DNA from: Listeria grayi DSM 20601
GTDB taxonomy: Bacteria > Bacillota > Bacilli > Lactobacillales > Listeriaceae
Reading direction: 5' to 3'
DNA length: 64,000 bases
Assembly: GCF_000148995.1 (NCBI RefSeq)
Contig: NZ_GL538352.1
Location: 682,001 to 746,000 of the forward strand
In this document: positions 57,682-60,584 of the stretch, one piece after another
Position numbering within the stretch: the stretch's first letter is position 1
Layout of the letters: every line of letters begins with the position of its first letter
Notes under the pieces: model-generated
Databases searched by the model: none
Seen by the model: the letters and a program-made list of their open reading frames with translations, nothing else
What the model was told of the DNA's origin: nothing
Made by a program: the position numbers and the translations under genes

Positions 57682-57726
57682 TAGCAGATCAGTGTTCCAG
57701 CATTTTGACATTGATTTGCTATTTTT
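57682..57726 (+). terminator. Probable terminator of lapA overlapping the next promoter
   Basis: TAGCAGATCA (57682-57691) and TGATTTGCTA (57712-57721) pair over 10 positions with one wobble around a 20-base loop, followed by TTTTT. The loop contains the -35 box of the HSP90 promoter. Confidence 0.6.
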
Positions 57727-57733
57727 GTATACT
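57705..57733 (+). promoter_or_regulatory. Promoter of the HSP90-TPR operon
   Basis: Consensus TTGACA (57705-57710), exact 17-base spacer, TATACT (57728-57733). No CIRCE element, in-register CtsR box or sigma-B promoter was found, so housekeeping expression is likely. Confidence 0.87.
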
Positions 57734-57768
57734 TTAACTACTAGATAGTAGCGAAAGGGGAACGTTTT

Positions 57769-59562
57769 ATGGAAGAAAACATGCGCTTCAAAGTAAATCT
57801 CGGTGGCATGATCGACATTTTATCCAACCACCTGTATGATTCCAAAGATGTTTATATTCGGGAACTGCTGCAGAATGCTACAGATGCAATTCGAGCTCGC
57901 AAAAAAAACGAATCTTCGCTAACAGGAGAAATCGCTGTTAGTTTAAATACATCGGACCAAGGCGGTTCGGTGATTATTTTTGAGGACAATGGGATCGGAC
58001 TTACCACCGAGGAAGTCCACGAATTTTTAGCAACGATTGCCAGCTCTTCTAAAGGGTCTAAGCGTTTTCAAATCGAAGAGAATGATTACATCGGTCGCTT
58101 TGGGATCGGTCTGCTTTCCTGTTTTATCGTCAGTGATGAAATCGTCATGATCTCCACATCAGCAAAAACAAGGCAGACAGTGGAGTGGCGTGGGAATGCG
58201 GATGGCACGTATCAGATCCGTGAACTTGATCTGCCGGATCGTGAGCCGGGAACGCATGTTTATTTGCGTGCTGATCCAGAGGCGGAAGAAGGATTGGAGT
58301 GCTTCGAAGCGGAGCAACTGGAAAAAGTACTTAAAAAATATGGAGCTTCGCTGGAGATCGCGATTCGCTATGAGGATCAGATCATTAATGAAACAACGAA
58401 ACAGTTTGCTGACCTAGAAACCTTGCAACAACTTTCTTCGCATGAGATCCTTGCGTTTGGCCGCGAACTCTATCAAACGAACTTTGAAACGTATTGTCTG
58501 CTTCAATCAGAAAATAAACGTACATATGGGATTGCCTATGTTATTCCGTATGCGATCCAAATGAATGCGAAACGCAACCATACCGTGTATCTCAACAACA
58601 TGTTTGTGACGGGACAGTCCGCCGATATTTTACCAGAATGGTCTTTCTTTACTAATTGTGTCTTATGGACAGATGAGCTTCAGCCAGTCGCTTCTCGGGA
58701 AGACTTTTATAAAAATGCTACGCTGGAAAAGGTGGCTGGTTCACTTGGAAAAGCACTTAAAAAGGGGATCGAATCACTTAATCAAGAAGTGTTGGAACGA
58801 ATCGTTTACACACATTTCCACGCATTCAAACTGATGGCATTAGAAGATAATGAGTTTTTAGAATTGATCTATCCTTACTTGCCTTTCCGGTCAGGAAACG
58901 GCGAAGAAAGTCTCGCTGCGGTTTTAAAGCGAACAAGCGACATTTATTATACGTATTCTGTTGATGATTTTAGACAGATCATCGATTTAGCAAGAAGTAA
59001 AGGCATGGAAGTGATCAATGGTGGTTTTAGTTACGATGCAGCAATCTTGCGTGCGCTAAGCGATATGGTCGAAAACGTGCAGCTCGAAATGATCGAGCCA
59101 GCTCAGCTGTTAAATGAGTGGAATGAGATCTCGGCGGACGAACAGCAGTTTTTCGCGGCACTTCTGGAGTCTTTAAATCAGCGGATGGCGGAGTATAAAG
59201 TCAAAGTAGCAATCAAAAAGTTTGAACCACGCGACATGCCAGTGCTGTTTATCAATCCGACCGCAACGCAGCAGCTTCGTGAATTGGAGCGTGCCCAAGA
59301 AGAGTCCAATAGCTTATTTAGTTCGATCTTAGAGAGCATCCAAAGTGATTATGGAGTGGAACGTGTCTTTGCCGAGTTGTATCTCAACTTGGAAAATCCA
59401 TTGATCAAACGCTTGTTTTCCCAAGATCGAACGGCGGAGTCGCTAGAAACGATCGTAAAAATGCTGTATATCCAAGCATTGCTATTCGGCCATTATCCGT
59501 TGAAACAAAAAGAAATGACATTAATGAACGACAATTACCTGCAAATTTTGAGCATGTTATAG
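57769..59562 (+). CDS. HSP90 family chaperone ATPase, divergent HtpG-like
   Basis: 597 residues, about 30 shorter than Bacillus or E. coli HtpG. The GHKL ATPase domain (about 1-215) keeps catalytic Glu32 and Asn36 in RELLQNATDA, FEDNGIGLT near 72-80, and the lid/G2 motif GRFGIGLLSCF near 109, where classic HtpG has GQFGVGFYSAF. The middle domain (about 220-440) retains the SRE arginine in VASREDFYKNA near 308. The C-terminal dimerisation domain is short and has no MEEVD-like tail. So ATPase activity should be intact while client or partner contacts differ. ATG 57769 follows AAAGGGG; ATG 57781 is an alternative. The next gene, a TPR-like protein, starts 9 bases downstream. Listeria encodes a relative (lmo0942 in L. 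monocytogenes, from memory) at another locus. Confidence 0.93.
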   Translation: MEENMRFKVNLGGMIDILSNHLYDSKDVYIRELLQNATDAIRARKKNESSLTGEIAVSLNTSDQGGSVIIFEDNGIGLTTEEVHEFLATIASSSKGSKRFQIEENDYIGRFGIGLLSCFIVSDEIVMISTSAKTRQTVEWRGNADGTYQIRELDLPDREPGTHVYLRADPEAEEGLECFEAEQLEKVLKKYGASLEIAIRYEDQIINETTKQFADLETLQQLSSHEILAFGRELYQTNFETYCLLQSENKRTYGIAYVIPYAIQMNAKRNHTVYLNNMFVTGQSADILPEWSFFTNCVLWTDELQPVASREDFYKNATLEKVAGSLGKALKKGIESLNQEVLERIVYTHFHAFKLMALEDNEFLELIYPYLPFRSGNGEESLAAVLKRTSDIYYTYSVDDFRQIIDLARSKGMEVINGGFSYDAAILRALSDMVENVQLEMIEPAQLLNEWNEISADEQQFFAALLESLNQRMAEYKVKVAIKKFEPRDMPVLFINPTATQQLRELERAQEESNSLFSSILESIQSDYGVERVFAELYLNLENPLIKRLFSQDRTAESLETIVKMLYIQALLFGHYPLKQKEMTLMNDNYLQILSML

Positions 59563-59571
59563 GAGGACGCG

Positions 59572-60567
59572 ATGAATTATTTAGAAGACCTAGAGTTAGC
59601 CTACCAATTAGGCGATCAAAACCCGGAAGTCATCCCGATATTGGAACGCGTGATCGCTGCGGCAGATGTTTATCAAGACATTGAAGTGGGCGTTGAAGCA
59701 CGCGATTTGATGATCGAAGCTACTGTCTATAATGGACAAATGAAAAAAGCGCTGCAAGCGTTTGCCTGGTTGATAAAAAAATATGAAGAAAAAAGCCCAT
59801 TTGTATCCACGTATGATATTTTATGGAAATACAAATGGATCGCGGGCGACACTTGCGGGATTTTGGCGATTTCTAAAGAACAAATAGAAAACTTGCTAGC
59901 CGATATGAAAACAAAATTCCAAGAAAACGGCTTTTCGCTGCGGCCTTATTATAAAACAGTTGCGATCGCAGCGGAAGAAATGGGGAACGCAGAAACCGCG
60001 GCCGACTATTTTGCGAAATGGCAAGCGACACCAGCTGATTATATGAATGATTGTGTGGCCTGCGAAACAAACGATGTGGCGCATCATCATTACTTCACTG
60101 GTGACAGCCAAAAGGCGATTCAAGCCGCAAAACCGGTCATTAATGGCAAACAAAGCTGTGCAGAGATACCGCATTTAACATATGGCTTCGCAGCTCTGGC
60201 ATTTTTGGATGTCGATCAACCTGATCAGGCAGCAGCTTGTTTTGCTAAAGGGTACCCGCTGGTGCGGCAAGAACCGGAATATTTAAAAACGATCGGTCAA
60301 TTTGTTGCTTATCATTATCAAATCGGGGATCTTGTGAAGGCAAAAGAAATTATTGCTGAGAATGAAGTGATCTTGGAAAAATCGGATTCTGAAATGAGTA
60401 AGATGCTCTTTATGATCCATGCATTGCCAGTCGTTCAAGCTGACAGTAGTTTCCCGGAGATATCGCGTGATTTAGCGGCAAGATTCGATGCTAGAAATGG
60501 TAATGATTATTATTCGAAATTATGGCAAACCTCCATGGATAAACGAGAAAGAGACTTGGAAATTTAA
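59572..60567 (+). CDS. TPR-like helical repeat protein, putative partner of the HSP90 homologue
   Basis: 331 residues, no signal peptide, acidic, almost entirely helical by pattern. Repeated helix pairs with A/G/Y/L spacing typical of tetratricopeptide-like arrays are visible: MKKALQAFAWLIKKYEEKSP near 63, AEEMGNAETAADYFAKW near 135, PDQAAACFAKGYPLV near 215, and YHYQIGDLVKAKEIIAENE near 248. In the middle is NDCVACETNDVAHHHYF with Cys161, Cys164 and His171-173, a possible metal site, then KQSCAEIPHLTYGFAAL near 193. AGGAGG overlaps the end of the HSP90 gene and the gap is 9 bases, so both products are made together. TPR proteins are standard Hsp90 co-chaperones in eukaryotes; a co-chaperone or client-adaptor role here is inference. 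Confidence 0.88.
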   Translation: MNYLEDLELAYQLGDQNPEVIPILERVIAAADVYQDIEVGVEARDLMIEATVYNGQMKKALQAFAWLIKKYEEKSPFVSTYDILWKYKWIAGDTCGILAISKEQIENLLADMKTKFQENGFSLRPYYKTVAIAAEEMGNAETAADYFAKWQATPADYMNDCVACETNDVAHHHYFTGDSQKAIQAAKPVINGKQSCAEIPHLTYGFAALAFLDVDQPDQAAACFAKGYPLVRQEPEYLKTIGQFVAYHYQIGDLVKAKEIIAENEVILEKSDSEMSKMLFMIHALPVVQADSSFPEISRDLAARFDARNGNDYYSKLWQTSMDKRERDLEI

Positions 60568-60584
60568 CCGATTTCCAGTATAAT
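60556..60584 (+). promoter_or_regulatory. Promoter of recJ-apt
   Basis: TTGGAA (60556-60561), exact 17-base spacer, TATAAT (60579-60584), overlapping the end of the TPR-like gene. TGGAAAT (60557-60563) and ATTTCCA (60571-60577) make a perfect inverted repeat within the promoter. Confidence 0.87.

Follow-up and report, generated by a model that had tools for sequence, protein, structure and literature searches.

A Two-Gene Locus of Listeria grayi That Pairs an Hsp90 with a TPR Superhelix Protein: a Candidate Bacterial Hsp90 Co-chaperone Module

The Gene Pair of Listeria grayi

A stretch of 64,000 nucleotides from Listeria grayi DSM 20601 (contig NZ_GL538352.1, positions 682,001 to 746,000; the whole stretch is called the window here) contains, between lapA and recJ, an HSP90-family gene that is followed on the same strand, with a gap of 9 bases between the open reading frames (ORFs), by a gene for a predicted TPR superhelix protein, hereafter the partner (Table 1). 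An initial annotation, made from the letters of the window, had proposed that the two genes form a self-contained Hsp90 co-chaperone system, and the coordinates, lengths and 9-base gap that it gave were exact. The comparisons described below suggest, with a probability of about 0.62, that the two genes are a dedicated bacterial Hsp90/TPR co-chaperone module.

Table 1. Features of the hsp90-partner locus (positions in the window)
Feature	Position	Strand	Description
HSP90-family ATPase gene	57769-59562	+	597 residues; NF010683 type with N-terminal, middle and C-terminal domains
Partner gene	59572-60567	+	331 residues; TPR superhelix protein of no named family
DCxxCE ... CxxxPH motif of the partner	60049-60174	+	conserved; residues 160-201
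Promoter-like TTGACA-N17-TATACT	57705-57733	+	11 of 12 consensus matches
Palindrome CTACTA-GA-TAGTAG	57738-57751	+	just 3' of the -10 element of the Hsp90 promoter

The Hsp90 and Its Relation to HtpG

The Hsp90 scored 673.8 bits against the NCBIfam model NF010683 ("HSP90 family protein"; cut-off 455) but 185.6 bits against the HtpG model NF003555, whose cut-off is 371, and on the latter ground its identification as an HtpG was rejected. Its predicted model could be aligned with full-length Hsp90s along residues 7-597. Family scores and the predicted model thus show an Hsp90 that is complete in its N-terminal, middle and C-terminal domains and that belongs to a subfamily distinct from HtpG. Although HtpG shares the three-domain fold and the catalytic residues, the window Hsp90 is only about 22% identical to the 11 HtpGs compared, and 46 positions conserved in NF010683-type Hsp90s occur in no more than 15% of these HtpGs. 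The protein is a clear member of the NF010683 (PRK14083) family, whose model, however, spans the Hsp90 alone, and it was the sole Hsp90-type match found in the genome of the window.

In GHKL ATPases a Glu, an Asn and the DxGxG and GxxG motifs have their roles in ATP binding, and the middle domain supplies the arginine of an SRE motif. All of the residues that the initial annotation had described as intact (Glu32, Asn36, DNGIG, GRFGIG and SRE) could be located, as E32, N36, D73-NGIG, IGRFGIG (108-114) and SRE (309-311). Among 34 sequences E32, N36, D73, G75, G77, G109, G112, G114, S309, R310 and E311 were invariant, and N74, I76 and R110 were the sole listed motif positions that were not. With respect to earlier classifications, NF010683 probably belongs to the HTPG groups defined by Chen et al. 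(2006; PMC1525184), and protein lengths and taxa lead us to guess that it is Group C of that paper, whose main text does not contain the word "operon".

The Partner Protein

No family of Pfam or NCBIfam matched the partner above cut-off, PADLOC gave no match, and the sequence alone had no sequence match in PDB. Its predicted model (predicted local distance difference test score of 97) is a TPR superhelix of stacked helix-turn-helix repeats, which bears out the "helical repeat" protein of the initial annotation, and structural comparison with VIA-align described it as one long superhelix resembling MalT domain III. The cysteines of the DCxxCE ... CxxxPH motif, C161, C164 and C196, were each present in 49 of 50 aligned partner sequences, the fiftieth (L184) being without all three, and this pattern makes the motif a possible metal site.

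The likeness to MalT domain III bears on an alternative in which the partner is the dedicated client of the Hsp90, i.e. a ligand-sensing superhelix, like MalT domain III or Rap/NprR, that would depend on this Hsp90 for folding or switching and so have it as a private chaperone. We consider this unlikely, because the short partners showed no output domain, and because the partner of Streptomyces globosus, a protein of 1033 residues, joins the partner domain to a second TPR array and has no recognised effector.

Conserved Pairing across Genomes

Within a set of 100 relatives (25 genomes of the same genus, that of the window included, and 75 others), the Hsp90 was found in 19 genomes, 18 of them of the same genus and one among the 75 others, and in all 19 of these Listeriaceae the gene immediately 3' of the Hsp90, on the same strand, is that of the partner. 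Partner matches were obtained in 22 of the 100 genomes, namely the same 19, two with fragments (G009 and G021) and one with a weak match (G078, E 7e-6). In the phylum, NF010683 was matched over its cut-off in 6 of 398 sampled Bacillota genomes, and the partner was found in the same 6, with none having one gene alone (the draws for the two proteins are taken as the same sample, their size and listed handles being in agreement). In contrast, the partner was absent from all 147 other Bacillota genomes of the sample that have only an NF010683 match below cut-off, which ranges from clear HtpG-type to marginal. The five Paenibacillaceae of the sample all carry the partner directly downstream of the Hsp90; because five of the six genomes belong to one family, the six co-occurrences are not independent events.

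A profile scan of named genomes gave 282 relatives (a single-protein scan had confirmed none), and the analysis covered the 80 best of them, the other 202 being set aside. When all ORFs were scanned, the partner adjoined the Hsp90 downstream in 80 of 80 of these best loci, and a gene-calling pass over the same 80 recovered the Hsp90 in 78 and an adjoining partner in 72, the rest being masked by spurious ORFs. The Listeriaceae, phylum and named-genome sets share some genomes. Measured from the longest ORF starts, the two genes overlap in 45 of the 80 named loci, are separated by 0-30 bases in 31 and by 33-270 bases in 4; because such frequent overlaps and short gaps favour co-production, we infer that the two proteins associate physically.

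In the plasmid collection, 306 records had a tblastn match to the Hsp90, mostly to other Hsp90 types, and the five best annotatable NF010683-like records all have an adjoining partner; a script counted three of them, and L189 and L190, where an over-long ORF start runs into the Hsp90, were counted by hand. A sixth record, NZ_CP030101, has Hsp90 and partner matches at adjoining coordinates, and two L. monocytogenes "plasmid" records look chromosomal. Among 148 Bacteroidota genomes the start genome alone was over the NF010683 cut-off.

The proposal of a co-chaperone pair, to which the initial annotation had considered a lack of conserved adjacency fatal, survived this search. A chance or neutral linkage of two unrelated housekeeping genes is extremely improbable given the adjacency in loci of several phyla and the matching presence and absence in the 398 genomes, and adjacency, co-occurrence and congruent trees reject it to the extent that genome comparison allows.

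Congruent Trees and Different Insertion Sites

Trees of the Hsp90 and of the partner were compared for 85 pairs (L155, whose partner is split, was dropped) and gave a cophenetic correlation of 0.95, against a maximum of 0.31 in 500 label shuffles. Because the shuffles leave shared descent in place, this value alone is no proof of an interaction. In a 24-leaf view, both trees join two Alcaligenaceae to the Listeria/Bacillaceae group, and beside Streptomyces they have a Planctomycetota metagenome-assembled genome, which may be misbinned; these placements look like transfer of the pair. Locally the trees disagree, since the window Hsp90 groups with L107 and the window partner with L106/L108, probably because the first partner of L107 is a deep paralogue.

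In the Listeriaceae the pair occupies four sites, with 15 genomes at one, 2 and 1 at two others, and 1 at lapA-recJ. At the main site the pair lies beside a divergent gene of 156-167 residues, which we take to be fri (dps); we call it the fri site after an annotated L. monocytogenes record, in which fri (156 residues) occupies this place in the same gene order. The initial annotation had read the insertion between lapA and recJ as a sign of movement. The position is indeed unusual, as secDF-lapA-recJ is unbroken in 21 of 21 other genomes of the genus examined (G022-G024 being outside this set), but the pair itself is usual in the genus, and the implied newcomer to Listeria was not borne out, since 18 of 25 same-genus genomes have the pair, 15 of them at the other locus. 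A recent origin as foreign DNA was rejected as well, because the GC content of both genes (0.43 for the Hsp90 gene and 0.42 for the partner gene) is that of the window (0.42) and most congeners have the pair elsewhere. That the two-gene module moves as a unit is strongly supported, since the two genes stay adjacent, are present or absent together, have trees that agree and lie at several different sites, and in this respect the initial annotation stands.

No recurrent third gene was seen at the loci compared. The commonest Pfam family among 107 neighbour proteins at 32 loci (up to two per side, 90-900 residues) had 3 members, and DUF4026, considered as a conserved third gene, was rejected because its gene lies 3' of the partner in just 2 Bacillaceae loci. 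At the fri site of an L. monocytogenes record (L188:11864-12610), an SMI1/KNR4 (SUKH) gene comes right after two partner copies. Carriage by phages was also rejected, with none of 73 pattern matches in viral contigs confirmed. Five phage records, four of them named Listeria phage, have an unannotated match to the partner; the two inspected are marked UNVERIFIED, and the five are probable host DNA.

Tandem Copies of the Partner

Between 1 and 4 partner ORFs accompany the Hsp90 in the Listeriaceae, and 7 of the 19 genomes have 2-4 of them. Several copies were likewise found in 7 of the 80 loci from named genomes, of which four belong to the same Listeria genomes, and L155 has one split copy rather than a tandem. 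Some groups of paralogues are common to several species. In 158 of the 406 pairs formed by 29 copies (those in the usable dS range, three short pieces being excluded), the ratio of nonsynonymous to synonymous substitutions (dN/dS) had a median of 0.14 and a maximum of 0.24. Because these low values point to purifying selection, most copies appear to be kept rather than decaying. Only in G004 are the extra copies broken up; assembly gaps may cause this fragmentation, and the alignment of partner copies contains 34 unknown residues.

In the annotated L. monocytogenes record an HSP90 family gene is followed by two partners, beside fri. From this order and the lmo numbering, as far as the passages cited next give it, we take lmo0941 for the first of the partner genes in this species, the gene after the Hsp90. 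In the relevant passages of PMC3534079, lmo0942 lies beside fri (lmo0943). Those of PMC6901971, on neuroinvasive isolates, report that two methods gave signals of selection at lmo0941 in lineage I, a third being inconsistent between lineages, and call the function of this gene unknown.

That several diverged copies share one Hsp90 fits adaptors better than a dedicated client, and the retention of a single Hsp90 alongside several partners leads us to favour an adaptor or regulator. The tandem copies also bear on a further alternative, a conflict module for phage defence or toxin/immunity, with the Hsp90-like ATPase and the TPR protein detecting or disarming an invader. Both SUKH and SUFU are found among immunity proteins. 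Besides the tandem copies, the patchy distribution and the different sites agree with such a module, as do the SUKH gene that adjoins the pair in L. monocytogenes, a SUFU gene nearby in Heyndrickxia, and, in a cyanobacterium, TIR and helicase genes close to an HSP90-like gene. However, the neighbour families are non-recurrent, viral contigs have no confirmed copy and the partner copies are under purifying selection; moreover, PADLOC did not match the partner, and the models with which it matched the Hsp90 (TmtA, REase_II and a single HEAT-ARM model) lie mostly over the ATPase domain. Taking both sides together, we regard a conflict module as improbable.

A Proposed Hsp90/TPR Co-chaperone Module

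Like the eukaryotic Hsp90, which works with TPR co-chaperones such as Hop/Sti1, FKBP51/52, PP5 and AIP, the window Hsp90 is paired with a TPR protein. Eukaryotic TPR clamps are three-repeat domains, whereas the window partner is modelled as one long superhelix, and its gene lies next to that of the Hsp90 on one strand. Unlike its eukaryotic counterparts the window Hsp90 has no MEEVD tail, and therefore binding would have to differ from that of the eukaryotic clamp. In the module that we favour, the partner would dock on the Hsp90 dimer through surfaces specific to NF010683-type Hsp90s. Once docked, it might hold or select client proteins, or else gate the ATPase cycle; client selection or tuning of the ATPase, as suggested in the initial annotation, is plausible. 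Where several partner copies exist, each could equip the shared Hsp90 with a client range of its own, and the three-cysteine site might tie two neighbouring repeats of the partner together, perhaps with zinc.

The fuller version of this scheme, in which a non-MEEVD bacterial Hsp90 is served by 1-4 tandem TPR adaptors that have separate client ranges and are held by a three-cysteine site, with more than one origin or divergence of HSP90-like/TPR pairing (the NF010683 and gamma-proteobacterial types), is put forward tentatively, at a little under even odds. In more general terms, the comparisons suggest that dedicated co-chaperones exist for some of the Hsp90s of bacteria. Among the matches listed from the open-access literature there was no report of the Hsp90/TPR-partner pairing, although a report elsewhere is possible, and a direct phrase search of that literature returned no paper on a co-chaperone of bacterial Hsp90 or HtpG. 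As a helper in a looser sense, DnaJ2 is reported to associate with the HtpG of Mycobacterium tuberculosis (PMC10269695). If the proposal is true, a portable two-gene Hsp90/TPR system would be a minimal model for client selection or for the setting of the Hsp90 cycle and would offer a route to new bacterial clients; the pair, as the sole Hsp90-type match found, would then be the whole Hsp90 system of the cell.

Several observations weigh against a dedicated co-chaperone module. Conserved adjacency fits a dedicated client equally well. The MEEVD tail is absent not only from the C terminus of the window Hsp90 but also from those of 9 relatives. Because 7 of 25 same-genus genomes are without the Hsp90, this protein is dispensable, and two Listeria genomes without it keep a partner fragment of 94-95 residues. 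A long partner homologue of Actinomyces oris has no Hsp90 in the 17 kb read or elsewhere on its 415-kb plasmid (the chromosome was not searched), and a 758-residue Nonomuraea homologue of a gamma-proteobacterial TPR protein of 764 residues (see below) has none in the 14 kb read. Finally, the TTGACA-N17-TATACT site was not found at the 18 other Listeriaceae copies.

Related HSP90-like/TPR Neighbours

The tblastn search of the plasmid collection also brought up a second HSP90-like family. In Pseudomonas aeruginosa (L242:5890-10131) and Xanthomonas vasicola (L241:4956-9179), a gene of this family is followed, after 36 and 24 bases respectively, by a gene for a large protein (764 and 774 residues) with a weak TPR signal under the Pfam cut-off. 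These pairs, which count in favour of the proposed module, resemble that of the window in order, but their HSP90-like genes score 277-293 bits for NF010683, short of its cut-off, and 185-192 bits for HtpG, and their TPR proteins do not match the profile of the window partner (E 0.2-0.6). In Pseudanabaena (L243:5932-9314) the second gene downstream of an HSP90-like gene (383 bits) is a TPR gene; the gene directly after the HSP90-like gene is 32% identical to the C-terminal extension (663-877) of the HSP90-like protein, and TIR and helicase genes lie nearby.

On the A. oris plasmid (L187:6304-11021) the partner homologue lies near two genes with YbjN matches, one of them below cut-off. The Listeria partner fragments (L068:8523-8810 and L069:7778-8062) correspond to the N-terminal part of the partner, are open in both species and adjoin a gene that, by eye, looks like an ArsR-type regulator.

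Putative Regulatory Sites of the Window Pair

The promoter of the initial annotation is present (Table 1) and was the top scorer among 14 promoter-like sites in 5 kb, 9.8 being expected by chance. Among the other Listeriaceae copies L053 has, by eye, TTGTGA-N17-TATACT, and the remaining copies differ. With regard to heat-shock control, simple operator patterns detected no CIRCE, CtsR, sigmaB or PerR/Fur-like sites in the 250 bases upstream of the 19 Hsp90 genes, a weak search that is not decisive.

That no other gene belongs to the unit, as initially claimed, could not be established. A weaker promoter-like site (60556-60584) lies before recJ, and because recJ starts on the same strand 41 bases 3' of the partner ORF, and the site listing of the window has no terminator-like site in this interval, read-through from the partner gene into recJ is possible. 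At the other end of the pair, the palindrome that follows the promoter may be a private operator or a hairpin at the transcript start; its exact sequence, CTACTANNTAGTAG, occurs only once in the 2.6-Mb genome.
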